Source: an uncultured Lachnospiraceae bacterium (GTDB lineage: Bacteria > Bacillota > Clostridia > Lachnospirales > Lachnospiraceae). From it: a DNA stretch of 12,219 nt. Positions 1-12,219 of the stretch are shown here, piece after piece (the stretch's first letter is position 1; each line of letters begins with the position of its first letter). A program made the translations under genes and the position numbers. The stretch spans positions 1 to 12,219 of the forward strand of contig CAJOPI010000114.1 of NCBI GenBank assembly GCA_905236275.1, written 5' to 3'. A model generated the notes under the pieces. That model had not been told where the DNA came from and did no database searches. It saw only the letters and a list, made by a program, of their open reading frames with translations.

Positions 1-62
1 CAATAACATCATACGCATTCCCCTGACAACAATTTTGAACCAAATAACTTTTTAAGGACCTA

Positions 63-90
63 TAAAGTAAAAGCTTTTTCCTGCCGATAA
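63..90 (+). promoter_or_regulatory. Flagellar sigma (sigma-D / sigma-28) promoter candidate
   Basis: A TAAAGTAA box at 63-70 is followed by a perfect GCCGATAA box at 83-90, with 16 nt between TAAA and GCCGATAA. The known sigma-28/sigma-D consensus is TAAA, about 15 nt, then GCCGATAA or GCCGATAT, so the -10 box matches fully and the spacing is within one base. Transcription would start near 96-98 and give a leader of about 27 nt before the ATG at 124. No well-spaced sigma-A promoter is visible here: TTGAAC at 35-40 and TATAAA at 61-66 are 20 nt apart. Seen in sequence; sigma-factor use is inferred. Confidence 0.75.
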
Positions 91-94
91 ATAA

Positions 95-119
95 GTGAGT
101 AGTTATTCTCACAGGGGGG
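95..119 (+). promoter_or_regulatory. Leader hairpin and Shine-Dalgarno site of the REC-EAL gene
   Basis: GTGAG (95-99) and CTCAC (108-112) form a 5-bp inverted repeat with an 8-nt loop. They are followed directly by the purine-rich run AGGGGGG (113-119), which ends 4 nt before the ATG at 124. The Shine-Dalgarno run supports this start. The small stem lies at the predicted transcript 5' end; whether it affects mRNA stability or translation is unknown. Confidence 0.5.
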
Positions 120-123
120 AAAT

Positions 124-1362
124 ATGGTAGATTTTTTGACGGGAACGCTTAAATATAAAAGAAAAATTCTGGTGGTTGACGATGATGAGGTCAATCGTTT
201 CATGCTTAAGGATATGCTCGAAGACGACTATGATATCCTGCTTGCCTCGAATGGCAGGGAAGGTCTTGAAATGCTGCGCGAAAATTCAACCTCACTCTCA
301 ATAGTGCTCTTGGATCTCATCATGCCTGAAATGGACGGCTATGCATTCATGAAGGAGGTCGAAAAGGATGACAGATTAAGCCGGATTCCCGTCATTGTCC
401 TCACCTCCGAAAGCTCCGCAGAGGTTATAAGCCTTCGTATGGGAGCGGCGGATTTTTTATCGAAGCCCTACAGCGAGCCCGATGTCATCAAAGCGAGGCT
501 CGAAAAAACCATCCGGCTCTACGAGCGCAATATCAATAATCATTACGAAAACCCCTCTGCCAATGATAATACAACGGATGAAAAGAAGGCTTATGAAAAC
601 CGGCTTATTGCCGATATGGATAAGGCTCTGGCAGAAAAGCAGTTCATTGTTTTTTACCAGCCCAAATACGCCATCAAGACCGAGAAGCCTTATCTTTGTT
701 CGGCAGAAGCCCTGATACGCTGGAAGCATCCCGAATTCGGAATGGTAAGTCCGGGAGTCTTTATCCCGCTTTTCGAGCGTAACGGACGAATCATAGAGCT
801 TGACCATTATGTATGGAGGGCAGCCGCAGAACAGATCTCGGAATGGAAAACCGGCTATGGTGTGACAGTTCCCGTTTCCGTAAATGTTTCCCGCATGGAT
901 ATTTTAGACGAAAGATTTGTTGAAAAAATCGAAAACATCGTGAGCGAAACAGGCGTTTCCCCGAAGGAATATCTGCTTGAAATAACGGAATCAGCCTTCA
1001 TTGAGGATTCCGGTCTGATAAATAAAAAAATCGAGAGGCTTCGGGAGCTGGGATTCCAGATTGCAATGGACGATTTCGGAACAGGATATTCTTCGCTGAA
1101 TATGATATCAAGCATGCCGATAGACATATTGAAGCTCGACAGGGGATTTGTAAGAAACATCCATGATAATCCAAAGAATTACAGAATGGTCGAGATTGTC
1201 ATGGATATCGCGAAGCTTTTGGACGTGAAGGTAGTTGCGGAGGGTGTGGAAACCGAGGCACAGCATGAACTTCTAAAAAAAGTTGGCGTTGATATAATAC
1301 AGGGCTTTTTCTATTCAAAGCCTGTACCGCCTGAGGAATTCGAAATCTTTCTGACTGCGTAA
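124..1362 (+). CDS. Response regulator with EAL domain: c-di-GMP phosphodiesterase
   Basis: A 412-residue cytoplasmic protein. Residues about 13-130 form a receiver domain: acidic D19-D21, phosphoacceptor D64 in LLDLIMPEMDG, T94 and K114 in the usual places. Residues about 160-410 form an EAL domain with the full catalytic set: E195 of EAL, N254 in VNVSRMD, E286 in LEITES, D316-D317 in MDDFGTGYSS, K337 and D339 in LKLD, E373 in AEGVE and Q393 in QGFFYSKP. It should hydrolyse cyclic di-GMP to pGpG under control of phosphorylation. There is no GGDEF domain and no membrane segment. The ATG follows a strong Shine-Dalgarno run and a sigma-D-like promoter, which suggests a role in switching between motile and sessile states. 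No histidine kinase lies next to it, so its phosphodonor is unknown. It is transcribed toward the three-gene sensor operon and ends at a shared terminator. Confidence 0.95.
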   Translation: MVDFLTGTLKYKRKILVVDDDEVNRFMLKDMLEDDYDILLASNGREGLEMLRENSTSLSIVLLDLIMPEMDGYAFMKEVEKDDRLSRIPVIVLTSESSAEVISLRMGAADFLSKPYSEPDVIKARLEKTIRLYERNINNHYENPSANDNTTDEKKAYENRLIADMDKALAEKQFIVFYQPKYAIKTEKPYLCSAEALIRWKHPEFGMVSPGVFIPLFERNGRIIELDHYVWRAAAEQISEWKTGYGVTVPVSVNVSRMDILDERFVEKIENIVSETGVSPKEYLLEITESAFIEDSGLINKKIERLRELGFQIAMDDFGTGYSSLNMISSMPIDILKLDRGFVRNIHDNPKNYRMVEIVMDIAKLLDVKVVAEGVETEAQHELLKKVGVDIIQGFFYSKPVPPEEFEIFLTA

Positions 1363-1386
1363 ATAAGGAACTGTAGATAAATCAGC

Positions 1387-1435
1387 AAAACGCCGGCTAT
1401 ATGCTGCAAAATATCAGCAGTACCACCGGCGTTTT
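1387..1435. terminator. Bidirectional intrinsic terminator
   Basis: AAAACGCCGG (1387-1396) is exactly complementary to CCGGCGTTTT (1426-1435), with a weaker inner stem TGCTG (1402-1406) / CAGCA (1415-1419). The A-run and T-run outside the GC stem make it work on both strands. It lies between the convergent REC-EAL gene (+) and the solute-binding protein gene (-) and would end both transcripts. Confidence 0.85.
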
Positions 1436-1443
1436 ATCATGTC

Positions 1444-3084
1444 TTAAGAGCTCTTTTTCAGCTTTTTTTCCACCTCAAAATCCAGTCTTTTTATATACGC
1501 ATCAACATCGACTTTTGAATTGTATTCCTCCATATAGGCATCCCAGTTTTTTTCAAAGCTTCCTTCCTCGGACATGATAACTATCGGCAGCCATTTCCTT
1601 TTGACTTTCTCCATATTTTCCTTCGCTCTGCCGTAGTCGGTGTCATTTCCCCAGTCGGCAGTCACATAATGAAGCGGATACCAGGGGGCACCCTCTGTCT
1701 CTTCTCCCAAAAAATCACGCCAGGTTCTGTAACCGTATGCATCCATTATCCTTTTATCCAGATCAGAAAGGCGGCTGTAGAAAATCTCCGGCTGCTCGGC
1801 AGGGTCAACACAGTTTATATTGTCCGAAAGCATACCCTCATATCCCGGAAACTGCGAATAGGGACAGACATTTTTCTCCTGAAATTCACCATTCGCCCAG
1901 TTCTCCGTCTGAGCCTCATTCCTGTAAAATACACCGTCGGAGTCAACCTCATAATCAACACCTTCCTCTCCCCAGTGCCTGAGTATCATCACTTCAGGCG
2001 AAAGAAGTCCGTCGATAAAGGAAAGTGCGCCCTTGACATCCTTGCAGCTTACAGATATTCCGAGTCCCGAGGCCGTATTCAGATTGGTCTCCCTGCAAAG
2101 ATAATTTCCGCTGATACTCTCATTCGCCGTAACCGCCAGCGGAACATACATATATTCATCCATGCTCTTGCCATGAAGCTCACTCATGGCATCGATTATC
2201 TCCCAGTACTGGTCAACCATTCCGAGAACCCTTCCCGATGAAAGCCTCCGGAGATACTGGTCGTAGGAAAGCGTGAAGGTCTCAGGGTCTATAAGCCCTT
2301 TCCCATACATCTCATTCAGCTTTTCATAATACTGTTTCGCTTCCGGAAGCGTGTCATAGATTCCCGTTTTTCCCGTCTTACTGTCAACCGTTGCACAGCC
2401 GTTATTCGGATACCCGGCAAGAAACATGGGCGGATTTTCCAGACAGAAATACCGCCAGTCATCGCACAGTATTTCAAAGCCTATTGTGCTTTCACCATTA
2501 GTTTCCGCTTCCGCATTTCTGTAGCTTTCTATCAGGTCAAAATATTCATCAAGGGTTTTTATCTTCGGATATCCCGCCCATTCAAGAACCCTTTTCTGTA
2601 TCCAGAAAGCCTCTCCCGACGGCATTGTTGACGTATCATGTCCGTTTATGACTCCGTACTGCGGGATAAAATAAATATGCCCGTCAGATTTCCTTAAGGA
2701 CTCCCACTGCTCTTTGCTGAGATAATTTTTTATCCTCGGATATCTGTTGATATAATCTTCCAGCGGGACGAGTGCCCCCGCTTCTATGAGGAGGTCGGTT
2801 GCCGAGCTTCCGTCTATGAAATCAGGATATTCATCCGAGGCTATAAGGCTCCTTATCTTTTCCTCCGCAGTCTGCGCCGTCAGCTTCTCCACGTCCGCCT
2901 TTGCCCCGGTTATCGAAGCAATTTTATCCTTAAGCCTCGTATCCTTGTGGTCCTCAGGTCCCGTAACCGCAAAAAGAGCCGTATAAGTCCTGACCTGATT
3001 CTTCTCAGGCATCAGATTGATAAATAAAACAGCAGCTATTCCCGCAATTATAAGAAACGGGATAATTATTCTCCAGACCTTCAT
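1444..3084 (-). CDS. Extracellular solute-binding protein, family 1, N-terminally membrane-anchored
   Basis: A 546-residue protein resembling the large ABC-type sugar-binding proteins (LipO/YtcQ-like, COG1653) found beside YesM/YesN pairs. Residues about 5-24 are a single hydrophobic helix after MKVWR. No lipobox cysteine follows and no clear signal-peptidase site is seen, so it is probably anchored by this helix rather than secreted or lipidated. The mature part has features usual for the family: a degraded-substrate-cleft pattern with EYPDFIDGSSA, a LVPLEDYINRYP segment, the IYFIPQYG strand and a long C-terminal lobe rich in Trp, Tyr and Asp. Its ATG overlaps the stop of the response-regulator gene as ATGA, and AGGA lies 7 nt upstream, so translation is coupled. 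No permease or ATPase gene follows; the operon ends at the terminator at 1387-1435. It may present a sugar to the co-encoded kinase or serve a transporter encoded elsewhere. The ligand is unknown. Confidence 0.88.
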   Translation of the reverse strand: MKVWRIIIPFLIIAGIAAVLFINLMPEKNQVRTYTALFAVTGPEDHKDTRLKDKIASITGAKADVEKLTAQTAEEKIRSLIASDEYPDFIDGSSATDLLIEAGALVPLEDYINRYPRIKNYLSKEQWESLRKSDGHIYFIPQYGVINGHDTSTMPSGEAFWIQKRVLEWAGYPKIKTLDEYFDLIESYRNAEAETNGESTIGFEILCDDWRYFCLENPPMFLAGYPNNGCATVDSKTGKTGIYDTLPEAKQYYEKLNEMYGKGLIDPETFTLSYDQYLRRLSSGRVLGMVDQYWEIIDAMSELHGKSMDEYMYVPLAVTANESISGNYLCRETNLNTASGLGISVSCKDVKGALSFIDGLLSPEVMILRHWGEEGVDYEVDSDGVFYRNEAQTENWANGEFQEKNVCPYSQFPGYEGMLSDNINCVDPAEQPEIFYSRLSDLDKRIMDAYGYRTWRDFLGEETEGAPWYPLHYVTADWGNDTDYGRAKENMEKVKRKWLPIVIMSEEGSFEKNWDAYMEEYNSKVDVDAYIKRLDFEVEKKLKKSS

Positions 3085-3947
3085 TTCTTCATCCTGTTCT
3101 TTATCCTGTATTGATTTGGCGTAACGCCTTTCAGCTGAACGAACCTGCTTATAAAGACATCCGCATTCGGAAATCCAAGCTCTTCGGCAATCTCATAAAT
3201 TCTCTTATCAGTATTTAAGAGCATTTCCTCCGCATCCCTTATGCGAAGATAATAAACATAATCCTTGAAAAGCATATCATGCTTACTCTTAAAAAGCTGC
3301 CCCAGATAAACATTATTTACGTGAAAAATTTCTCCCAGCTGCTTTAAGCTGATATTCTCCCGGTAATGCTTATCCAGATAATCGTCAATCTCCCTTACAA
3401 GGTCCTTTTTTTCGAATTTTCTGCTCTCCTCATTCTTTTTAACGGCATTTATCAAAGGGTCTATATCCTTCTGTTTTTCAAGAACCTCCGAAGCATAGTC
3501 TTTTTCACTGCCGTCCCCATCAAGCAGGTCTAAAAGAATTTCCTTCTGTTCGCTGTAAATCCGTTCCAGCCTGTCGGATTTTTGAGACTTAACCTTCTCT
3601 ATTATGACAGTCAGTTCCTCAGTCTGAACCGGCTTCAGCAGATAATCACTTATCCCGCAGCCCATTGCCTTCCGCGCATATTCAAAATCGGCAAATCCGG
3701 TCAGGATAACAATATGTGCCGAGCTTATCTTTTCTTTCTTTATTTTTTCCGCAAGTTCAAGCCCCGTCATTCCGGGCATTTTTATATCAAGAAAAATCAG
3801 GTCAACCTTTATATTTTTAAGGAGCGACAGGGCTTCAAGCGCATTCCCCGCCTCTGCCCCTATTTCACAGCCGTATTTTCTCCAGTCGATTATCCGTCTG
3901 AGACCTTCCCTGATGAACGGCTCATCATCAATTATCATTACCTTCAT
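3081..3947 (-). CDS. YesN-type response regulator: receiver plus AraC DNA-binding domain
   Basis: A 288-residue transcription factor. Residues 1-120 form a receiver domain with D7-D8, phosphoacceptor D54 in FLDIKMPG, T83 and K105 in LLKP. Residues about 183-286 form an AraC/XylS domain with two helix-turn-helix units; ISLKQLGEIFHVNNVYLGQLF and RIYEIAEELGFPNADVFISR are characteristic. The stretch between the two domains is only about 60 residues, so it is shorter than many YesN proteins. I chose the ATG at 3947 rather than the in-frame TTG at 3953, because the run GGGGG at 3954-3958 then sits 6 nt upstream. The gene overlaps the end of the kinase gene by 20 bp and overlaps the binding-protein gene by 4 bp, so the three form one operon. 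It probably activates sugar-utilisation genes when phosphorylated by the adjacent kinase; the target promoters are not known. Confidence 0.93.
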   Translation of the reverse strand: MKVMIIDDEPFIREGLRRIIDWRKYGCEIGAEAGNALEALSLLKNIKVDLIFLDIKMPGMTGLELAEKIKKEKISSAHIVILTGFADFEYARKAMGCGISDYLLKPVQTEELTVIIEKVKSQKSDRLERIYSEQKEILLDLLDGDGSEKDYASEVLEKQKDIDPLINAVKKNEESRKFEKKDLVREIDDYLDKHYRENISLKQLGEIFHVNNVYLGQLFKSKHDMLFKDYVYYLRIRDAEEMLLNTDKRIYEIAEELGFPNADVFISRFVQLKGVTPNQYRIKNRMKK

Positions 3948-5694
3948 TATCAACCCCCGGCATTACGATACATACCTCTGTTCCACCAGCTTCAGAGCTG
4001 TTGATTTCGATTATCAGCTTCTCCCCGTAAAGCTGTTTCAGTCGTATAACGGTATTTATTATCCCGATGCTTTTATTCGCAGCTTCTATATAGGAAATGT
4101 CAGCATTTTCGATGAGCTCGCGAAGCTCTGCAAGGCGTTCTTCATCCATTCCCCTTCCGTTATCCATTATTTCGGCATAAATCAGCCCTTCATCCAGCGA
4201 TACCACAACACTTATGGAACCGCCCTCAACACTGTTCTCTATCCCATGAATACAGGCATTCTCCACAAAAGTTATAATGGAAAATTTCGGTATAAAAAGC
4301 TCCCTGCACTCTTCCTGAACCGTCAGCGAAAATTCCAGTCTGTCCCCGAATCTGTATTTCTGGATTTCAAGATAGCGCTGAACATTTCTGCACTCATTTT
4401 CCACAGTTACCTTGTCCGAGTTCCAGCGGATATTTTCACGAAGAAGCATTGAAAAATTTTCAAGTATCTTTGCAGTTTCCGTCTCATTTTTGATAAGGCT
4501 GTGCATCCGGATACTTTCAAGCGCGTTAAACATAAAGTGCGGATTTATCTGGCTCTGCAAAGCATGAAGCTCCGCCTGTTTTTTAGACAAAAGCAGCTCC
4601 TGCTCCCTTTCCTTATTCTTGTAGACCGTTTCGATCAGTTCCCGTATACGGAGTACCATGAGGTTGTAGCTTTGAATTATGCTCCCTATCTCATCTCTTG
4701 AAGGCTCGATCTTTACCTCCTCATAAAGATCATTTTTCACACGCTCGATATTTTCCCCCATCGCGTAGAGCCTGTCATTGATGGAACGGAATATCAGGTA
4801 AAGCGTGATTGCCGGAAGGATCAGCGAAAATATATAAAGGGCGATAAGCATATTGATTTTTTCGCCCGGAATTTCCACCCAGCTTTTCTTATTGTCTATC
4901 ATGAGAATCTTAAATTTTGTTCCGTATATTTCCGGCTCCCTCTCCAGCAGCACACCACTGACATTTTTAAGGTCAAGCTTCCCGAATGCTTTTGAAGCAT
5001 TATCATTTTCTCCGGCAGACATGATGACATTGCCGTTTTCATCCATGAGATAACCTTCATGACCACCGCAGATCATCGTCATGCTCTTCTGCAGTTCGTC
5101 ATAATTAACATCCAGCATTATGCATCCGTTTCCGTCGTAGAAATTCATTTTCTTTACGATGGCGAGATGCCTTCCTATCGGTATATAGCCGCCGGATTCC
5201 CCGTTTTCGTAAAAGGCGCAGACGATATAATCCCTCTCCGACTCCATCAGTTTTTTATACCAGAAGGTTTCCGTCACCAGCTCCCGATTTACAAAATATC
5301 TCCCGTTTACAATAGTTGGATTATCCGTACATATCGTTATCCCGTCTGTTGATTCCGCGGAATAATAATACTGTATCGCCTCACTCTCCATAAGTTCGTT
5401 GAAGGCAGCATAATAATCAGCTTCCGACTTATATTCCTTTTCCAAAAAATCATCAATCGTATCCATTCTCTCTATATAGTCAGCGATTGAGATAAGCTCC
5501 CGAAGCGAGTTCCTTATGTCATATTCAAGCCGGCTTGCGGCGTTCTTCATCTCCGCCCTCGTCTGACTGCGGTTCTCATCTTCAATATTTCTGAAAAAAT
5601 ATATATTCGTTAAAAGCATTGGTATAAAGATACTCACGAAGATTATTATTAAGTTCTTTTCCCTGAGCTTCAGGTTATTCAAAAGTTTTATCAT
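3928..5694 (-). CDS. YesM-type sensor histidine kinase (HisKA_7TM-independent, LytS/YesM class)
   Basis: A 588-residue membrane kinase. One helix is at about residues 15-34 and a second at about 283-305; between them lies an extracytoplasmic sensor region of roughly 250 residues, dCache-like in length and pattern (YLMDENGNVIMSA). A HAMP segment follows (about 305-360), then a coiled stretch KNKEREQELLLSKKQAEL. The His_kinase domain carries H386 in QINPHFMFNAL, and the ATPase domain carries N479 in FVENACIHG and D511 in MDNGRGMD. All expected catalytic motifs are present. The partner is the YesN-type regulator encoded 20 bp into its 3' end. The ATG at 5694 is the only possible start after an in-frame TAG, yet no Shine-Dalgarno sequence precedes it, and a strong hairpin ends only 19 nt upstream. 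The ligand may be a plant-wall sugar, by context only. Confidence 0.93.
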   Translation of the reverse strand: MIKLLNNLKLREKNLIIIFVSIFIPMLLTNIYFFRNIEDENRSQTRAEMKNAASRLEYDIRNSLRELISIADYIERMDTIDDFLEKEYKSEADYYAAFNELMESEAIQYYYSAESTDGITICTDNPTIVNGRYFVNRELVTETFWYKKLMESERDYIVCAFYENGESGGYIPIGRHLAIVKKMNFYDGNGCIMLDVNYDELQKSMTMICGGHEGYLMDENGNVIMSAGENDNASKAFGKLDLKNVSGVLLEREPEIYGTKFKILMIDNKKSWVEIPGEKINMLIALYIFSLILPAITLYLIFRSINDRLYAMGENIERVKNDLYEEVKIEPSRDEIGSIIQSYNLMVLRIRELIETVYKNKEREQELLLSKKQAELHALQSQINPHFMFNALESIRMHSLIKNETETAKILENFSMLLRENIRWNSDKVTVENECRNVQRYLEIQKYRFGDRLEFSLTVQEECRELFIPKFSIITFVENACIHGIENSVEGGSISVVVSLDEGLIYAEIMDNGRGMDEERLAELRELIENADISYIEAANKSIGIINTVIRLKQLYGEKLIIEINSSEAGGTEVCIVMPGVDNEGNDN

Positions 5695-5713
5695 ATGAGA
5701 ACACGCAAACTAT

Positions 5714-5752
5714 GGCAAAAGCCCCCGCTGCTTTCGCAGTGAGGGTTTTGCC
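5714..5752 (-). terminator. Intrinsic terminator after the GH43 gene
   Basis: On the - strand, a long imperfect stem beginning GGCAAAA and closing TTTTGCC is capped by CTGC-GAAA-GCAG, a stable GNRA tetraloop. The 3' arm contains the T-run. It lies 37 nt after the GH43 stop and just 19 nt before the kinase ATG. It should end most GH43 transcripts, but could let some pass into the sensor operon as an attenuator. Confidence 0.8.
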
Positions 5753-5758
5753 TTTTGG

Positions 5759-5786
5759 ATAATGGATTTTAATTGTATCTTGTCGG
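5759..5786 (-). promoter_or_regulatory. Weak sigma-A promoter candidate for the sensor operon
   Basis: Between the GH43 stop and the terminator hairpin, the - strand reads CCGACA (5781-5786), a 16-nt spacer, then CATTAT (5759-5764). Each box matches four of six consensus positions. If used, the kinase transcript would begin with the terminator-like hairpin. This is a weak call, made because there is very little other room for a promoter. Confidence 0.2.
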
Positions 5787-5789
5787 CAT

Positions 5790-8700
5790 TCAGAATATTA
5801 CAGTCGTGGTATAGTTTCTGCCGTTAATCTGTGCAGTAACCTTTACCTTGCCTTTTTTGCTGCTTGTTACAAGAACGTGTCTTCCGTCCTTTGATACCGA
5901 AATCTTTACGTTATTCGGCTTGCTGCTTGACCATACAGCTGTTGAAATCTCTGTTCCTTCGAGGGTTAATTCTGCACCGTCTGTTCCTGCCTTAACCTTC
6001 TTCGGAAGCTTGGGCTGCTCAACCGCAACAGTCTTTGTAACCTCTTTTCCGCCTGCTGTATAAGTTACGGTAAAGCCTGTGCACTTCTTCTTAATGCTGA
6101 GCTTACCCTTCTTACTAACCTTTACGCCCTTGCCGGCAGTTATCTTGAAGGAGCCCTTATCGCCCTTAAGTACGAGCTTTCTTGCCGAAGCATTTACGGT
6201 AACATTTCCTGACTCATCAGAAGCAAGTGTTGTCGTATCCTTCGGAGCTGCAATCTGCTCTGCTGTGGAAGATTTTCCGCTTCCTGCCGATGCCTTGGGT
6301 GCCGGCTCAGAATCAGGCTTGGTAAGATCCTCAGCGGGCTTTTCAGGCTCATCCGGTGTATCTTCAGACGGCTTGTCAGGATTTACAGGTGTATCTTCAC
6401 CCGGCTTATCAGGTTTGTCTTCACCCGGTTTGTCAGGCTCTACAATAGGTTTGTCCTCTCCCGGCTTTTCAGGATCGTCATGTCCGGGCTTGTCAGGATC
6501 AACCGCAGGTGTATCTTCACCCGGCTTGTCGGGTTCCTTGATCTCTCCTTCTCCAAAGATGTAGGAATCAACCGTCATAAGGTCTTCGCCGTCACCCCTG
6601 AATACGAAGAATACGTTTCTCTCTCCCGTGATCTTTGTAAGTTCTGTTGAAAGATCCTTGTATTCGTCTGTTCCTTCGGGAACTTCAAGTTCACCTACAA
6701 GGCTTCCCTCAGGACTGTCAAGACGAACCTCTATCGTTCCGCCCTTCTTCGACTTAACTCTTGCAGTAAACTTATCTGCACCCTTTTCACCAAAGTCAAC
6801 GCCTGCAACGCTTGTCCAGTCGCCGTCATCAAGTGAGGTGAGCTCTCTGTTCGCATTGCTTCCGTCAATATCTGCAACCTTTATGCCCTTGTTCCATGCG
6901 ATCGTTTCAGCTTCAATTGTCTTGTAAGGGTCAAGGCTTTCAAGCTGGCTTATTCCTTCATAGGTTCCCTTGATAGGAAGGATATTTCCGTCCTCGTCAA
7001 ATTCCATAGCATCGATATGGGTTGAACGATATCCCTTTGCTGTTCCGAGTTCCTTTGCAACTGTCTGTGCATGATAGATGAAATAGCTCTTTCCTCTGAA
7101 TACAAAGGTTGCATGGTGGTTATTACCGCCAACACCGAACCATGTAGCCGGATTGTCGAAGATTTCTCCTGCATACTCGAAAGGTCCCATCGGGTCATCA
7201 CTTACCATATAGGCGATATTTCCGTTTCCGGGATAGCCCTCTTTGCTGTGGTTCATGAAGTTCGTGCAGTAGTTGTAGTAATATTTACCATTATACTTGA
7301 AAATACCTGAGTCTTCAAACATTGCGGGAGCGTCAATTTCAACTGCCTCTCCGTCAATGCTTATCATATCTTCACCGAGCTTTGCAACTCTTGCAGTATG
7401 AGGATTGTAAGCCTCTCCGTTTCTTCCGTTATTCGGGATACCACCGCCGAAATAGATGTAAGCAGAACCGTCATCATCCACAAGTACGGCAGGGTCGAAG
7501 CACCATTCAACTCCTTCGCAGCCCGGAACCTTTCTGTTTAAGAGATATCCGCCAACCGGATCTTTCCAGGGACCTATGGGAGAATCACTCTCTACAACAC
7601 CGATACCGCTTCCGTCATTTGCAAAGTAAAGGAAGAACTTGTCTTTACCGTCAATTACCTTATGCGCAACAGCGGGAGCCCATGAGTGTGATGCCCATTT
7701 AGCCGGTCCGTCCTGTCCTGCTATCTTCATTGTGCCATGGTCTGTCCAGTTCACCATGTCCGAGGAAGAAATTACTCTGAGAGTCTTGATGTAACCATAT
7801 GCGTTATCCTTAAGGTTTCCGTTTGCATCATACTCATAATCATCGGCTGTCATATAAACATAAACCCTGTCGTTGTAAACGATTGCATAAGGGTCAGCAC
7901 CGAATTCCTGTGTATAAAGCGGGTTCGAGCAGCCAAGCTTCTTTGCAATGGCACCTGTATCGAGGTATTTAAGCATAACTGTCTTGCTTGCGTCTTTTAC
8001 CTCATAGAAAACATTCCTGCCTCCGTCAACATGAGCAGAAAGGAGTGCTATTTTGCCCTCAACGTCTTTTCTTACATATCCGTTCATCTTGAGCTTAAGG
8101 GTTGCAAAAAGTCCGTCCTCTGCATCAAAGGCAACATCGTCACCCTTTACCTCGATAACGAGCTTGTCGTCTTCCATCCTGTATTCGGCATCTCCGCTGA
8201 TGGCATCCTTATTGAACTCAACATCATCAACGCTTACCTTCTCAGGAAGTGCAGCTGTGAGCTTTAAGCTCTTATAATCTTTCTTTTCAAGCTTATCAAG
8301 CTTAATTTTTGCCTCTGCTTCCTGATTGATAACGCCCAATATCTCATCAGGAGCTTCGAGTGATGCCTTGAGATCGCTTTCTCTGTAGTCCTTGTTTCCC
8401 TCGTTAGCATCCTTTGAAAGCTCAACTATTGAAAGGTCGTCAGCCGTTATATCCACGAGGTCGGCTTCGGTTGTATCGGAAGCGTTCTTCCAGGGTGTTT
8501 CAAAATAAACGCTTACCACGTCTCTGTCATCATCCTCAGAGAAAGTGTATTTTCCTGAAAGATTTACCCACTCGCCTTTTTTAACTTCTTTTGTATCGAT
8601 TGTTGTAAAGCTCTGTCCCTCACCTTTTCTTATGGAAAGTGCGATAGACTGTGAGTCAACCTCATCCTGCTTTACCCATGCACTGAATTTATAGGTATAG

Positions 8701-9629
8701 CCTTCCTTGAACTCGTTCTCGAATTTCTGACCGAAACCGTCGTTTGTAAGGCTTCTGTTAGTTACCTTAACGGCCTTCTTTCCGCTGTGGGAGTCCTTTG
8801 TCTCTGAAATACTGAGCTTGTCATTTTTTCCTGACTCATGCTCATAGGTCGTCCAGCCTTCCGTACCCTTCTCAGCGTCACCGTTTACAACGAGTTCGCT
8901 GTCACCTGTCTCATAGGACATCGAGAAATCGTCAAGATAGTAATCCATGAGGTCATTCTCTTCTGTCGGGTTCCCTGACCATGGTGTCTCTATGAAAACG
9001 CGGTTGAAATCGTCGTTGAAGGCCCAATCCTGTCCTTCACAGTTTACGCTTTCCGGTATCTTATAGGTTGCGCTAAACTCAGTCCATTCACCTTTCTTCG
9101 CTGTGAACTGAACTACATTGTCTCTGTATCTGTAGCTCGGTCCGTTCTGTATCTCAACTCTGAAAGCCTTTGTAGCAGGACCGTCCTTGTACATAAGCTT
9201 TCCGCTGAATTTGTAGGTCTTGCCAACTTCAAGCTTGCCGTCAAGATTCTGCTCTGCACCTGCGCCACAGGTTTTCCTGTTCTTTACCCATACGCAGTAA
9301 TTTCCGTCATCTTCGGGCTCCTCATCCTCGGAAGCATTGAGGGCATTGACGGACTGTATGTCAATCTCCCCTCGCTCTGTGTTCGTTACACTCCAGCCTT
9401 CAGTTGTACCTGTTGAAACATCCCCATTCGTCGCAAGCTCAACGCTTACCTTCTTCCTGCCGCTCTTCTTCTCTGCCTTTGCACCGGTCTCTTCCGCAAG
9501 AATCTCCAGCCCGCTTCCGGTACGAACCTCAGCTGCCAGAGCATTTACCGGAAGATTGCCCAATGCGAGCATCATCGCCAATGTGGCTGCCGTTGCGCGC
9601 GAGCCCATCAGTCTCTTCTTCATTCCCAT
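5790..9629 (-). CDS. Secreted multi-module GH43 arabinoxylan-active glycoside hydrolase
   Basis: A 1279-residue exported enzyme. The start is ATG 9629: AGGAG (9636-9640) lies 6 nt upstream, while the longer reading frame to 9674 lacks a good site. Modules in order: signal peptide (about 1-33, ending NALAA); two CBM4_9-type modules, each opening with NGD...GW (about 63-237 and 243-405); a beta-sandwich of cohesin-like pattern (about 416-555, uncertain); a GH43 five-bladed propeller resembling XynD arabinofuranohydrolases (about 570-900), with probable base D579 (GADPYA), modulator D712 (FDPAV) and acid E772 (FEDSGIFKYNGKYY); a CBM6-type module opening IEAE (about 904-1025); an acidic Pro-rich repeat linker (about 1030-1105); and a Lys-rich Ig-like C-terminus (about 1130-1279). 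It probably removes arabinofuranosyl groups from arabinoxylan outside the cell, but a xylosidase role is possible. No dockerin, SLH or LPXTG anchor is seen. Confidence 0.93.
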   Translation of the reverse strand: MGMKKRLMGSRATAATLAMMLALGNLPVNALAAEVRTGSGLEILAEETGAKAEKKSGRKKVSVELATNGDVSTGTTEGWSVTNTERGEIDIQSVNALNASEDEEPEDDGNYCVWVKNRKTCGAGAEQNLDGKLEVGKTYKFSGKLMYKDGPATKAFRVEIQNGPSYRYRDNVVQFTAKKGEWTEFSATYKIPESVNCEGQDWAFNDDFNRVFIETPWSGNPTEENDLMDYYLDDFSMSYETGDSELVVNGDAEKGTEGWTTYEHESGKNDKLSISETKDSHSGKKAVKVTNRSLTNDGFGQKFENEFKEGYTYKFSAWVKQDEVDSQSIALSIRKGEGQSFTTIDTKEVKKGEWVNLSGKYTFSEDDDRDVVSVYFETPWKNASDTTEADLVDITADDLSIVELSKDANEGNKDYRESDLKASLEAPDEILGVINQEAEAKIKLDKLEKKDYKSLKLTAALPEKVSVDDVEFNKDAISGDAEYRMEDDKLVIEVKGDDVAFDAEDGLFATLKLKMNGYVRKDVEGKIALLSAHVDGGRNVFYEVKDASKTVMLKYLDTGAIAKKLGCSNPLYTQEFGADPYAIVYNDRVYVYMTADDYEYDANGNLKDNAYGYIKTLRVISSSDMVNWTDHGTMKIAGQDGPAKWASHSWAPAVAHKVIDGKDKFFLYFANDGSGIGVVESDSPIGPWKDPVGGYLLNRKVPGCEGVEWCFDPAVLVDDDGSAYIYFGGGIPNNGRNGEAYNPHTARVAKLGEDMISIDGEAVEIDAPAMFEDSGIFKYNGKYYYNYCTNFMNHSKEGYPGNGNIAYMVSDDPMGPFEYAGEIFDNPATWFGVGGNNHHATFVFRGKSYFIYHAQTVAKELGTAKGYRSTHIDAMEFDEDGNILPIKGTYEGISQLESLDPYKTIEAETIAWNKGIKVADIDGSNANRELTSLDDGDWTSVAGVDFGEKGADKFTARVKSKKGGTIEVRLDSPEGSLVGELEVPEGTDEYKDLSTELTKITGERNVFFVFRGDGEDLMTVDSYIFGEGEIKEPDKPGEDTPAVDPDKPGHDDPEKPGEDKPIVEPDKPGEDKPDKPGEDTPVNPDKPSEDTPDEPEKPAEDLTKPDSEPAPKASAGSGKSSTAEQIAAPKDTTTLASDESGNVTVNASARKLVLKGDKGSFKITAGKGVKVSKKGKLSIKKKCTGFTVTYTAGGKEVTKTVAVEQPKLPKKVKAGTDGAELTLEGTEISTAVWSSSKPNNVKISVSKDGRHVLVTSSKKGKVKVTAQINGRNYTTTVIF
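6330..6540 (-). repeat. In-gene direct repeats coding an acidic Pro-rich linker
   Basis: Within the GH43 gene the six-residue unit [D/E]-K-P-[G/S/A]-[E/H]-D occurs seven times (DKPGED, DKPGHD, EKPGED, DKPGED, DKPGED, DKPSED, EKPAED), separated by short P/V/T/D spacers. The DNA repeats around the motif TCACCCGGCTTGTCAGG. Such tracts act as flexible linkers between modules and can change in copy number by slippage. Confidence 0.85.
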
Positions 9630-9635
9630 GTCCTT

Positions 9636-9640
9636 CTCCT
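9636..9640 (-). promoter_or_regulatory. Ribosome binding site deciding the GH43 start
   Basis: AGGAG lies 6 nt before ATG 9629, and 12 nt before the second ATG at 9623. The upstream in-frame ATG at 9674 has no comparable site, and using it would put 15 charged residues ahead of the signal peptide. This favours 9629. Confidence 0.85.
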
Positions 9641-9770
9641 TGTATAGATATTTTACGTCAAACGAAATCCCCAATACCGATTTCCGTTTGTATTATTTTA
9701 TATACATTTTATAGATTTTGACGGGATTTTCATCCCTAAAAAGTTAAGGAGTTTAGGATATTTGTGGTAT

Positions 9771-9784
9771 AAAACTATAGTTTT
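9771..9784. promoter_or_regulatory. Perfect palindrome, possible operator upstream of GH43
   Basis: AAAACTATAGTTTT is a perfect 14-bp palindrome about 142 bp upstream of the GH43 start and beyond the likely -10 region. The position suits an activator site. Binding protein unknown; it may be a chance palindrome in AT-rich DNA. Confidence 0.3.
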
Positions 9785-9865
9785 TTGGATTTTGTTGGTT
9801 ATTTGGTAGAACTTTTCAGAGATTTGACCTTTTGAGATACAGATTTTCATGATAATTATCTTTAA

Positions 9866-9901
9866 AACAAAAAATCAGACGCAGTTCTTTACGTCTGATT
9901 C
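9866..9901 (-). terminator. sstT: Intrinsic terminator of sstT
   Basis: On the - strand, AATCAGACG (9901-9893) and CGTCTGATT (9882-9874) form a perfect 9-bp stem with a 10-nt loop, followed by a T-rich run. It begins 34 nt after the sstT stop. A textbook rho-independent terminator that separates sstT from the GH43 gene. Confidence 0.92.
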
Positions 9902-9934
9902 CTGTTTTTGAATAGATATGACGTATTAGGATGA

Positions 9935-11179
9935 TCACTTAAGGAAGTCCGGAAGTTCTCTTCCCTCTTTTTTCCACTGCATGAATTCCGCGGTGGCAGC
10001 AAACATTACATCACCGGAGGAGTTAAGCGCAGTTTCCACAGAATCCTGAATCACTCCTATGATAAAGCCTACACCGACTACCTGCATTGCAACATCCTGA
10101 GGTATTCCGAAAAGCGAGCATGCCATAGGTATCAAAAGGAGCGAACCACCTGCCACACCTGATGCACCGCAGGCTGCAAGAGCTGCTATGAAGGACAGGA
10201 GCAACGCCGAACCGAAGGTTACATTTATGCCCATCGTATTTGCTGCGGCAAGTGTCAGAACCGTTATTGTTACCGCCGCCCCGTCCATGTTTATCGTTGC
10301 GCCGAGCGGTATTGATACGGAATACATCTCGCTGTCAAGTCCAAGCTCCTCGCAGAGCTCCATATTTATGGGGATATTTGCCGCCGAGCTCCTTGTGAAA
10401 AATGCAGTCACGCCGGATTGCTTCAGACATCTGAAAACAAGCGGATACGGGTTTCTCCCAAGTGCTATGAATGCGATGAGCGGGTCTATTATCAGAGCAA
10501 CCGTCAGCATGCATCCTACGAGCAGCAGAAGCAGCGCACCATAGTCAACGAAGATCGACATTCCGTTAGAGGAAATACTCGAATACACCAGCCCCAATAT
10601 TCCGAAGGGAGCGAGATTTATTATCCATCTTACCACCATGGATACCGCATCAGCGCTGTTTGCAAAAAAGGTCTTCGTAGTATCCGAAGCGGTATTTTTA
10701 AGTGCAAGCCCAAGAAAAGCCGCCCAGAAAAGTATACCCAGATACTTTCCGTCTGCTAAGGACTGAAGCGGATTTGCAACCATTCCAAGAAGAAGGTTCT
10801 TCATAATTTCAGGCAGACCCGACGGAATCACATCCGCCTCGGCTCCCTGTGTAAGCTTAATGGAAACAGGGAATATAAAGCTTGCGATAACCGAAACAAC
10901 AGCTGCCAGAAATGTACTTATCACATACAAAAAGATTACGGTTCTGAATTTACGCCCAAGCTTTTCGCGTCCCCTGCAAAGTGAAGCCGTTACAAGTACG
11001 AATACAAGCACCGGCGCGATTGCTTTCAGTGCTCCCACGAAAATATCGCCCAAAAAGCCGATCCACTCAACTCCCGGTACGGCAAGTGCCAGAACTATTC
11101 CAACCGCAAGACCGATTGCTATTCTGATTATCAGGCTCGTTTCATTGTAGCATTTGACTGCTTTTTTTAATGTTCCCAT
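9935..11179 (-). CDS. sstT: Sodium:serine/threonine symporter SstT
   Basis: A 414-residue inner-membrane transporter of the DAACS (glutamate transporter-like) family that imports serine and threonine with sodium. The length matches SstT. It has about eight hydrophobic helices plus two re-entrant hairpins. The first hairpin contains FFTRSSAANIPIN (around R263), the helix-7 motif is NMDGAA (N297-A302), which is the SstT form rather than the NMDGT of glutamate carriers, and the second hairpin contains ASGVAGGSLLLIP. The start ATG at 11179 follows the purine stretch GAAGAGA. It is probably a single-gene transcript: its own sigma-A-like promoter lies upstream (11259-11288) and a strong terminator follows. 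Imported serine can be deaminated to pyruvate; no catabolic gene is next to it. Confidence 0.95.
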   Translation of the reverse strand: MGTLKKAVKCYNETSLIIRIAIGLAVGIVLALAVPGVEWIGFLGDIFVGALKAIAPVLVFVLVTASLCRGREKLGRKFRTVIFLYVISTFLAAVVSVIASFIFPVSIKLTQGAEADVIPSGLPEIMKNLLLGMVANPLQSLADGKYLGILFWAAFLGLALKNTASDTTKTFFANSADAVSMVVRWIINLAPFGILGLVYSSISSNGMSIFVDYGALLLLLVGCMLTVALIIDPLIAFIALGRNPYPLVFRCLKQSGVTAFFTRSSAANIPINMELCEELGLDSEMYSVSIPLGATINMDGAAVTITVLTLAAANTMGINVTFGSALLLSFIAALAACGASGVAGGSLLLIPMACSLFGIPQDVAMQVVGVGFIIGVIQDSVETALNSSGDVMFAATAEFMQWKKEGRELPDFLK

Positions 11180-11240
11180 TCTCTTCTATTCTCCATATGT
11201 TTCGTATTCGTTTTACCACTTTAACGCATTGACGTTTTTA

Positions 11241-11256
11241 AGTGATGAAACTCACT
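11241..11256. promoter_or_regulatory. Inverted repeat at the sstT transcription start
   Basis: AGTGATGAAACTCACT is a 5-bp inverted repeat (AGTGA / TCACT) with a 6-nt centre, just downstream of the sstT -10 box. A second repeat of like form, AACG-CATTGA-CGTT, follows at 11223-11236. They could be a repressor operator or a short leader hairpin. No known regulator is recognised. Confidence 0.35.
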
Positions 11257-11258
11257 CT

Positions 11259-11288
11259 ATAATAGCATATCACCTCGTTTTTTATCAA
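11259..11288 (-). promoter_or_regulatory. Sigma-A-like promoter of sstT
   Basis: On the - strand, TTGATA (11283-11288) and TATTAT (11259-11264) are separated by 18 nt; the boxes match five and four or five of the six consensus bases. Transcription would begin near 11250 and leave a leader of about 70 nt before the sstT ATG. Confidence 0.65.
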
Positions 11289-11388
11289 TTCTTTTATGAG
11301 TTGAGCATCAAAGATATTCATCAAGGCATTCTGAAATCACCTTATAAAAGTTCTTTAGCTGAGTCTCCTTATTGTAATCATAGATTTC

Positions 11389-12018
11389 TCAGAAACCTAA
11401 GTTTTCATTTACAAGTATTACGTGTATCCTGTCCTTATGTTTTGAATAACGTGTTACAAGGAACTGGCAGCAGATGGTATCAGGCGATTTACAGTTCATA
11501 CAGGAGCCTGTTTTGGCACAGGGAGTTGACAGACCAAACCGCTGGGCATTTATAGGTGCTGCAACATTTCTTGCCCTTTTCATTGCCCCGTCCACATCAT
11601 CACATACCTTATTCATTCCGACAATGAATATCACTTTTTTCGGGCCCTGTGCAATCGCCGAAACGCGGTTGGCATTTCCATCAATATTGACCAGAATACC
11701 ATCCTCTGTCATGGCATTTGCACTGCTTAAAAACACGTCCGCATCATAAGCTGCAAGCATTGCCTTCCTTTTGTCCTCTGCCTTGTCGCGGTCAATGAAA
11801 TTATAATTTCCTTTTTTAACAGCCTCCACAAGTCCGATTTCATGAGCACTCATTGCACCGCCCATTGCCACGCTCCCGCCCTCCGGGATAAGTCCAAGTG
11901 CTATCTTTACTGCCTCGGAAGCATCCTTTGCATAATAACCGGACATATTCCGAGACTCCAAGCCCTTTATAACCTTCTGAGCCAAGAGGTCATTTCTTTT
12001 AACAATGTTTTCGTTCAT
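11389..12018 (-). CDS. LUD-domain protein (LutC/YkgG-like) with C-terminal cysteine cluster
   Basis: A 209-residue protein of the LUD (DUF162) family. The family includes LutC and part of LutB of the lactate-oxidation complex, but many short clostridial members are unassigned. It shows the usual features: a nucleotide-binding-like loop GGSVAMGGAMSAHEIG, the central ANAMTEDGILVNIDGNANRV segment, VIFIVGMNK and a C-terminal RIHVILVNENLGF strand. C167, C173, C176, C183 and C184 form a CX5CX2CX6CC cluster that could bind an iron-sulfur cluster or metal (inference). ATG 12018 has a strong GGAGG site 5 nt upstream. LutA and LutB genes are not seen nearby, so a role in lactate use is not established. 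A structured repeat element lies just upstream. Confidence 0.9.
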   Translation of the reverse strand: MNENIVKRNDLLAQKVIKGLESRNMSGYYAKDASEAVKIALGLIPEGGSVAMGGAMSAHEIGLVEAVKKGNYNFIDRDKAEDKRKAMLAAYDADVFLSSANAMTEDGILVNIDGNANRVSAIAQGPKKVIFIVGMNKVCDDVDGAMKRARNVAAPINAQRFGLSTPCAKTGSCMNCKSPDTICCQFLVTRYSKHKDRIHVILVNENLGF

Positions 12019-12023
12019 GGATT

Positions 12024-12030
12024 CCTCCTT
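12024..12030 (-). promoter_or_regulatory. Ribosome binding site of the LUD gene
   Basis: AAGGAGG lies 5 nt before ATG 12018, a near-perfect Shine-Dalgarno match that fixes the start. No convincing -10/-35 pair is seen in the 37 nt between the start and the hairpin at 12055, so the promoter is inside or beyond the structured element. Confidence 0.85.
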
Positions 12031-12054
12031 CTAACTACCTGTTCATACAATGAT

Positions 12055-12184
12055 GTTGGGGTCAAAAGGTATTTTGCCCCCAACTGATGCCCACGCATTG
12101 CTCCATTGCTTCGCAATTCACGCAATGCTGCAATCATTCGGAATCCGCATGTTTACTACGTAAACAGCTACTTCCTCATGATTG
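12055..12184. repeat. Structured palindromic intergenic element with three stem-loops
   Basis: Three inverted repeats stand in a row. First, GTTGGGG-TCAAAA (12055-12067) pairs with ATTTTGC-CCCCAAC (12071-12084), a 12-bp stem with one mismatch and a tiny loop. Second, GCATTGC (12095-12101) / GCAATGC (12122-12128) encloses ATTGC (12105-12109) / GCAAT (12113-12117). Third, CAATCAT (12131-12137) / ATGATTG (12178-12184) encloses GGAA / TTCC (12140-12143, 12172-12175) and then TGTTTAC / GTAAACA (12150-12156, 12160-12166). No coding potential is seen. It has the look of a dispersed REP-like element or a folded RNA leader; it may extend beyond the window. Confidence 0.7.
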
Positions 12185-12219
12185 GGCGGGTCAACAAGTC
12201 ATACAGCAGATCATGCAAG

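Follow-up and report, generated by a model that had tools for sequence, protein, structure and literature searches.

A 12,219-nt stretch of DNA from an uncultured Lachnospiraceae bacterium (GCA_905236275.1, contig CAJOPI010000114.1, positions 1 to 12,219, forward strand; hereafter "the window"), whose group is known from the rumen, carries on its minus strand, in this order, genes for an exported GH43 enzyme, a sensor histidine kinase, a response regulator, and a solute-binding protein (SBP). We propose that the last three constitute a stand-alone three-component sensor for xylan-derived oligosaccharides, with the SBP as a membrane-tethered co-receptor, a plausible reading to which we assign a probability of about 0.72. 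This proposal draws on the invariable linkage of the three genes in relatives and the absence of adjoining permeases, the frequent loss of the lipid anchor and the shortening of the tether, the presence of dedicated SBPs beside the best permease pairs of three trio genomes and the coexistence of trio and importer in two others, two parallel origins, the xylanolytic neighbors and a conserved promoter element, and the precedent of the CuaDSR system. The relevant features of the window are as follows.

1444..3084, minus strand: SBP, 546 aa, large family-1 type, no lipobox, with an N-terminal hydrophobic helix (open reading frame [ORF] map, Pfam, sequence, structure model)
3013..3066, minus strand: predicted SBP membrane helix, residues 7–24, separated by ~7 residues from the domain, whose first strand is at residue 32 (model, of lower confidence here, and hydropathy)
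3081..3947, minus strand: response regulator, receiver plus AraC-type helix-turn-helix (HTH), 288 aa, shortened (Pfam, comparison with relatives)
3928..5694, minus strand: LytS/YesM-type sensor histidine kinase, 588 aa, its dCache domain flanked by two predicted membrane helices (Pfam, model)
5714..5752, minus strand: hairpin between the GH43 and kinase genes, possibly a terminator, with no long T-run (95-nt intergenic stretch, z −3.3)
5790..9674, minus strand: exported multi-domain enzyme with two CBM4_9, one GH43, and one CBM6 domain; true start probably the ATG near 9629 (ORF map, Pfam)
9729..9756, minus strand: core of the element conserved ahead of the GH43 gene, a candidate regulator site (motif and pattern searches)

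With the regulator read from its first ATG (3081–3947; a TTG start would give 3081–3953), the kinase and regulator genes overlap by 20 bp and the regulator and SBP genes by 4 bp, as an initial annotation of this DNA had stated. A Pfam scan of the seven main ORFs of the window identified no permease or ATPase of an ATP-binding cassette (ABC) importer, in line with its claim that none lies beside the SBP gene. The GH43 gene, which the initial annotation did not mention, belongs to a recurring cluster described below. The only Pfam match of the SBP is SBP_bac_1, marginally above the cut-off (26.5 vs 26 bits), and its model (mean predicted local distance difference test score 93.6, with a less certain first 30 residues whose block means are 59, 79, and 65) has the large family-1 SBP fold seen in FusA and AlgQ2, as judged by a structure search, so that the earlier distinction from the XylF family holds. 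The closest solved chain by sequence was 9pmy_A (E 3.5e-58), an entry absent among the 50 matches listed in the structure search, while the best structural match was 8w7p, for which no paper naming it was found in open-licence PubMed Central (PMC). No cysteine occurs in SBP residues 1–80, and by this criterion the protein is not a lipoprotein; its highest 19-residue hydropathy (2.77) falls at residues 6–24, as expected for the lipobox-less hydrophobic helix recognized earlier.

For the kinase, dCache_1 and His_kinase scored above the Pfam cut-offs and HATPase_c and HAMP slightly below, and the translation retains PHFMFNAL and DNGRGM stretches that we take to be the phospho-acceptor and nucleotide motifs; a profile of its sensor region matched no solved chain. 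The receiver and AraC-type HTH domains of the regulator were both recognized by Pfam, and its reduced length reflects a shorter stretch between them: most members of the window's subclade have regulators of 288–302 aa (359 aa in L013/L129), those elsewhere in the clade mostly span 523–548 aa (385 aa in L031; truncated by the contig end in L029), and most relatives outside the subclade have 523–559 aa. In G033, a near-complete genome carrying the trio, seven LytS/YesM-type kinases were found, three of them by position within ~5 kb of an SBP_bac_1 gene, and among these three only the window-type trio had no nearby permease match.

We next examined gene neighborhoods in relatives. A scan of a species-genome collection returned 243 relatives, of which the best 80 loci were kept (9 on contigs <10 kb), and protein matches were taken from the best 120 of 3253. 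Two loci (L061 and L068) could not be resolved in the gene map and stand outside all counts. The window's clade, hereafter clade A, comprises 23 loci (L010–L031 and L042; 53–81% SBP identity) and was defined by the tree rather than by identity because two outgroup loci (L119 and L120), at 54–55% as near as the outer clade members, have a lipobox and permeases. A kinase and a regulator adjoin the SBP in 23/23 clade A loci, and the trio stays together even where gene order has changed (SBP-kinase-regulator in L025; kinase-SBP-regulator in L029 and L030). None of the 20 assessable loci (19 with ≥2 kb past the SBP, plus L129 in G033) has a permease adjoining the SBP, and the only one with permeases farther away, L012, encodes a different transporter with its own SBP. 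The conserved, transporter-free trio anticipated by the initial annotation is thus present, and the outcome that would have spoken against it, close orthologs always sitting beside permeases, was seen in 0/20. Within the genus, nine of 48 genomes carry a trio-type SBP (67–100% identity, one copy stop-broken), three only a distant SBP (39–40%), and 36 none at E 1e-50. In the closest relative (L010:2085-3716, genome G436), the trio SBP is split by a single TAG stop, either an assembly error or a pseudogene; this SBP was left broken, excluded from trees, and used for N-terminus and gene context alone.

Outside the clade, the same SBP type is typically a lipoprotein followed by two permeases, as in xylan/aldouronate-type importers. 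A permease lies within three genes of 63/65 importer-type SBPs (60 in the main count, including eight rows from L119–L128 assigned by hand, plus L005–L007), and the two exceptions, L062 and L074, end at a contig edge. By Pfam, the importer locus L070 includes GH43, GH8, GH115, GH3, and esterase genes, and L036 includes GH43, GH88, and phosphorylase genes, i.e., a xylan-utilization theme. In clade A, a gene for a xylan-degrading enzyme lies upstream of the trio in all 20 loci whose contig runs far enough to include a further gene on that side; this enzyme is of the GH43 type, except for GH10 in L029 and GH10 besides GH43 in L030 (the GH43 type was called by likeness to the window enzyme, with Pfam run on L014 and L017). 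In the remaining three loci, the contig begins inside the kinase gene (L010 and L013) or 90 bp before it (L031, which has a GH43 gene downstream of the trio).

To compare membrane anchors, a lipobox was called when a cysteine closed the hydrophobic stretch and polar residues came next; this simpler rule was used since a published lipoprotein motif (PMC13068155), applied with an excluded-residue set that forbids K/Q within the helix, matched only 46/65 importer-type SBPs. By this rule, 63/65 importer-type sequences have a lipobox, vs 6/25 in clade A, 1/7 in group B, and 0/1 in group C, two further sets of permease-uncoupled SBPs defined below. Cysteines were ambiguous in L022 and L028, and L015 has a good lipobox within a lipobox-less part of the tree. 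The two importer-type exceptions, L046 and L049 (Globicatella), are permease-linked SBPs whose signal looks by eye like that of a signal peptidase I substrate; their lipobox loss is of another kind. The hydrophobic segment also lay closer to the domain, at a median of 10 (A), 11 (B), and 17 (C) vs 22 residues in importer-type SBPs (A, B, and C pooled, Mann–Whitney p 6e-13, uncorrected for relatedness), and the median N-terminal hydropathy was higher (2.37 vs 1.86 in lipoprotein relatives).

The trees suggest that the transition from importer-linked to kinase-linked or extra SBP took place three times within this SBP family. We thinned 201 SBPs at 85% identity to 104, removed L008 and L009 (long branches) and P0081 (a fragment), and added rows to obtain a 115-row tree, in which, with the signal region removed, the rows whose context is known show three changes in permease linkage. 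Group B consists of an extra SBP in loci with a kinase-regulator-lipoprotein SBP-permease-permease set (L060, L071, L073, L088 and its near-copy L089, and L126; in L124 the SBP lies ~15 kb from the set); in L073, the extra SBP directly follows the kinase and regulator genes while the lipoprotein SBP stays with the permeases. Group C is a single kinase-regulator-SBP locus, L055 (Clostridium sp. C2-6-12), with a permease pair ~6.5 kb upstream. Xylan-enzyme context was checked by Pfam for clade A and L055, and by eye, through likeness to L070, for lineage B. Joining any two groups was rejected by approximately unbiased (AU) tests (p-AU 2e-5, 9e-4, and 8e-4, optimistic values because the groups were named after the tree was seen), and a 45-row mixture-model tree of hand-picked rows agrees, with support of 100/98 for A, 100/99 for B inside Lachnospiraceae lipoprotein importers, and 100/100 for a set uniting L055 with importer SBPs. 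A single origin of all kinase-linked or extra SBPs was therefore rejected, and the initial suggestion of a separate origin, framed with respect to XylFII, appears to be right and understated. Lipobox state, called by a noisy rule, changes 17 times on the tree. The outer A rows keep the lipobox (L029, L030, and L031, plus P0082, P0085, and P0095 of unknown context; a long assessed flank is available in L030 only), which suggests that permeases were probably lost before the lipobox in clade A.

The GH43 enzyme of the window offers a candidate output for the system. Approximately 100 bp upstream of its gene are conserved between the window, L011, L012, L014, L015, L016, and L129. A motif search on six related sequences (150 random starts, vs 40 for mononucleotide-shuffled controls) yielded a best 24-base block of 33.5 bits, compared to 23.6–25.7 bits in eight shuffled sets. 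Across four genomes, the core pattern with ≤3 mismatches had 12 matches, vs one for the reversed-pattern control: the six with ≤2 mismatches are all upstream of GH43-CBM genes, and of the six with three mismatches (L160–L165), the three examined (L161, L164, and L165) lie in unrelated ORFs. Two of the six good matches are independent of pattern-making and precede a GH43-CBM4_9-CBM6 paralog elsewhere in G014 and G031; a duplication of the gene may have carried the promoter along. In the genus as a whole, a variant of the pattern was found in 4/48 genomes (G014, G031, G433, and G009) at six sites, all before GH43-type genes, with one control match; three of these genomes have the trio SBP, and the pattern misses 6/9 trio genomes, where the sites are divergent or the GH43 promoter lies off the contig. 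A 55-base pattern of the whole element was found in only 1/48 genomes and missed most of its own source sites. The window contains one copy of the element core, and none before the kinase gene. A hairpin was detected between the GH43 and kinase genes in 6/7 intergenic regions (z −3.3 to −6.0; none in L017, z −0.2), and the enzyme and trio may thus be separate transcripts. At L166:3613-14001, a GH43 paralog carrying this element in its promoter precedes genes for another kinase, a regulator, a lipobox SBP, and a permease, so that the enzyme-kinase-regulator-SBP plan is repeated there with an SBP of a different type and an importer.

Taken together, these patterns are consistent with the following scheme. 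The ancestor of the SBP would be a lipoprotein that served a xylo-oligosaccharide/aldouronate-type importer; the permeases would then have been lost, and so, in most members, would the lipid anchor. The protein may now be kept near the membrane, beside the co-encoded dCache kinase, by a helix that stays uncleaved and a tether of short length; once loaded with sugar, presumably a xylan-derived oligosaccharide as judged from gene neighbors, the SBP would dock on the dCache domain, and the kinase would phosphorylate the AraC-type regulator. The latter could then act through the conserved element on the promoter of the secreted GH43 enzyme next to the trio and also, in two relatives with the trio, on that of the paralogous GH43 gene. 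More broadly, we see even odds that xylan/aldouronate-type SBPs became tethered co-receptors of YesM-type kinases on three or more occasions, along a path that can be repeated, with permease uncoupling (or duplication) first, followed by a switch from lipid anchor to helix and, in two lineages, from a long linker to a ~10-residue tether, where the short tether would keep the SBP level with the dCache domain, and the SBP helix may join the kinase helices in one signaling unit.

Alternatively, the SBP may still serve uptake via permeases encoded elsewhere, with the kinase sensing sugar alone through its dCache domain. Importer relatives are 43–55% identical to the SBP and share one tree with it, 39 columns are invariant across 100 aligned SBP sequences, many of them aromatic, CUT1-type permeases are present in the window's own genome, and CuaSR of Ruminiclostridium cellulolyticum still answered cellobiose without its SBP, CuaD (PMC10384115). 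However, no orthologous permease was found in four trio genomes (the window's own G000, 81.5% complete, and G033, G031, and G014): their best matches to the family's first permease reach 35–39% identity and 163–204 bits, vs 354–708 bits with the same query (phmmer) for complete permeases of that type beside relatives' SBPs. In addition, the best permease pairs of G000, G033, and G031, the three pairs inspected, are each accompanied by their own lipobox SBP, and the conserved gene linkage is to a kinase and a regulator, which makes this alternative improbable. Two trio genomes, G428 and G432, also encode, apart from the trio, a complete importer that comes with a kinase, a regulator, and a lipoprotein SBP of its own, and the idea that no trio genome has an importer of this family was accordingly rejected.

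It appears more doubtful still that the SBP captures sugar at the surface to aid the extracellular GH43/CBM enzyme and shares a transcript with the two-component genes by chance: although 21/23 loci have a GH43 or GH10 gene next door (the contigs of the other two, L010 and L013, begin inside the kinase gene), the possible terminator separates enzyme and trio in 6/7 regions, and translational overlap couples the SBP with the regulator rather than the enzyme. A cleavable signal peptide releasing a soluble, secreted SBP, which the alanine-rich helix ends of L011, L014, and L016 and the signal-peptidase-I-like importer SBPs L046 and L049 would favor, is the least probable of the three given the proline after the hydrophobic segment in the window, where the sole small-x-small stretch (AGIAA) lies inside that segment, and the higher hydropathy than in lipoprotein relatives.

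Several observations nevertheless weigh against the three-component sensor. The six lipobox-bearing clade A sequences indicate that the design can do without a helix anchor, and a helix anchor as a fixed clade trait was rejected; of the permanent anchor put forward in the initial annotation, what stands is that most clade members have no lipobox. In group B, the only member directly behind a kinase and regulator (L073b) is also the only one of the seven with a lipobox-like cysteine, and tether shortening is clear for A and B but not for C, whose Clostridium/Paenibacillus relatives have 15–23 residues. Alanine-rich helix ends and the small-x-small stretch inside the window's helix also count here, as non-cleavage was judged by hydropathy alone, and membrane-helix anchors are found in some true importers too. 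Permeases encoded far away can also be shared by an additional SBP, and the inspection covered only the best permease pair of three genomes. Finally, the element sequences come from close relatives, so that shared descent explains part of their conservation, and G009 (75% complete) has the element without a trio SBP.

Two other features were noted in the window. An inverted repeat (AAAACGCCGG...CCGGCGTTTT, 1390–1436, minus strand) directly past the SBP stop codon is likely a terminator between the SBP gene and a convergent gene for an EAL-domain response regulator (124–1362). A Clostridiales-1 RNA (RF01699, 77.4 bits; 12085–12219, minus strand), truncated at the window end, lies upstream of a LUD-domain gene.

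Overall, surviving intermediates suggest how transport proteins become receptors: the SBP family and gene order remain the same, permeases are lost, and the anchor is changed thereafter. Because three lineages show this change, loss of the lipobox in an SBP encoded next to a two-component system may provide a sequence signature for co-receptor SBPs currently annotated as transporters. To our knowledge, the signals of most YesM/YesN systems in fiber-degrading Lachnospiraceae are unknown, and the trio, together with its candidate operator, represents a sugar-sensing module of these bacteria that can be put to the test.

Among known systems, aldouronate/xylo-oligosaccharide-type importers of Paenibacillus and Lachnospiraceae (Chow 2007, as cited in PMC3572039) share the SBP family, related kinases and regulators, and gene order (kinase-regulator-SBP-permease-permease), and differ by a lipoprotein SBP, a mostly longer linker, and two downstream permease genes. 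XylFII, the SBP of the system invoked as precedent in the initial annotation, is of the XylF/Peripla_BP type. In XylFII-LytS-YesN of Clostridium beijerinckii, sugar is sensed by the SBP, which works with a two-component system whose kinase is LytS (PMC9769921, PMC13068155); however, the LytS sensor module is a 4-helix bundle (PMC9769921), unlike the dCache sensor here, and the SBP here is of the SBP_bac_1 type, not XylF. A close relationship to XylFII-LytS was thus rejected, and the nearest system is CuaDSR, an already known family-1 version. In Paenibacillus sp. FPU-7, one SBP (NagB1) lies beside a two-component system without permeases and a close homolog (NagB2) beside permeases, as in the trio family; the signaling role of NagB1 is only proposed, its sugars are chitin-derived, and a lipid anchor is expected (PMC8233162). 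For Parageobacillus, a second, non-lipoprotein SBP of a different family was remarked on beside YesM-YesN (PMC13068155). No published description of the trio was found among the titles and abstract starts listed from open-licence PMC, and the excerpts of PMC8954004 and PMC13311272 hold nothing on such a system.

In R. cellulolyticum, genetics and two-hybrid assays support CuaD-CuaS-CuaR as an SBP-kinase-regulator system: CuaD binds the CuaS sensor, which alone bound 0/3 sugars tested, CuaD improves growth, and the constitutive cuaDSR genes control the neighboring operon (PMC10384115). Like the trio, it combines a family-1 SBP, a two-transmembrane kinase with HAMP, and an AraC-type regulator, its SBP gene adjoins the two-component genes rather than permeases, and the CuaS sensor model (a long helix and two beta-sheet modules; PMC10384115) resembles the dCache model here. 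Differences include CuaD being a predicted lipoprotein of 410 mature residues, vs a 546-aa SBP of the large type in a clade mostly without a lipobox; the gene order (D-S-R vs kinase-regulator-SBP); the length of CuaR (538 aa vs 288 aa); and a second SBP, CuaA, feeding the importer in the Cua system, whereas no orthologous importer was found in four trio genomes (G000, G033, G031, and G014) and a separate importer is present in G428 and G432. Because CuaDSR is demonstrated and NagB1 proposed, a three-component design with a family-1 SBP is not new; the SBP subfamily, the lack of an orthologous importer in some genomes, the anchor, and the repeated origin are, and in its working parts the closest precedent is CuaDSR.

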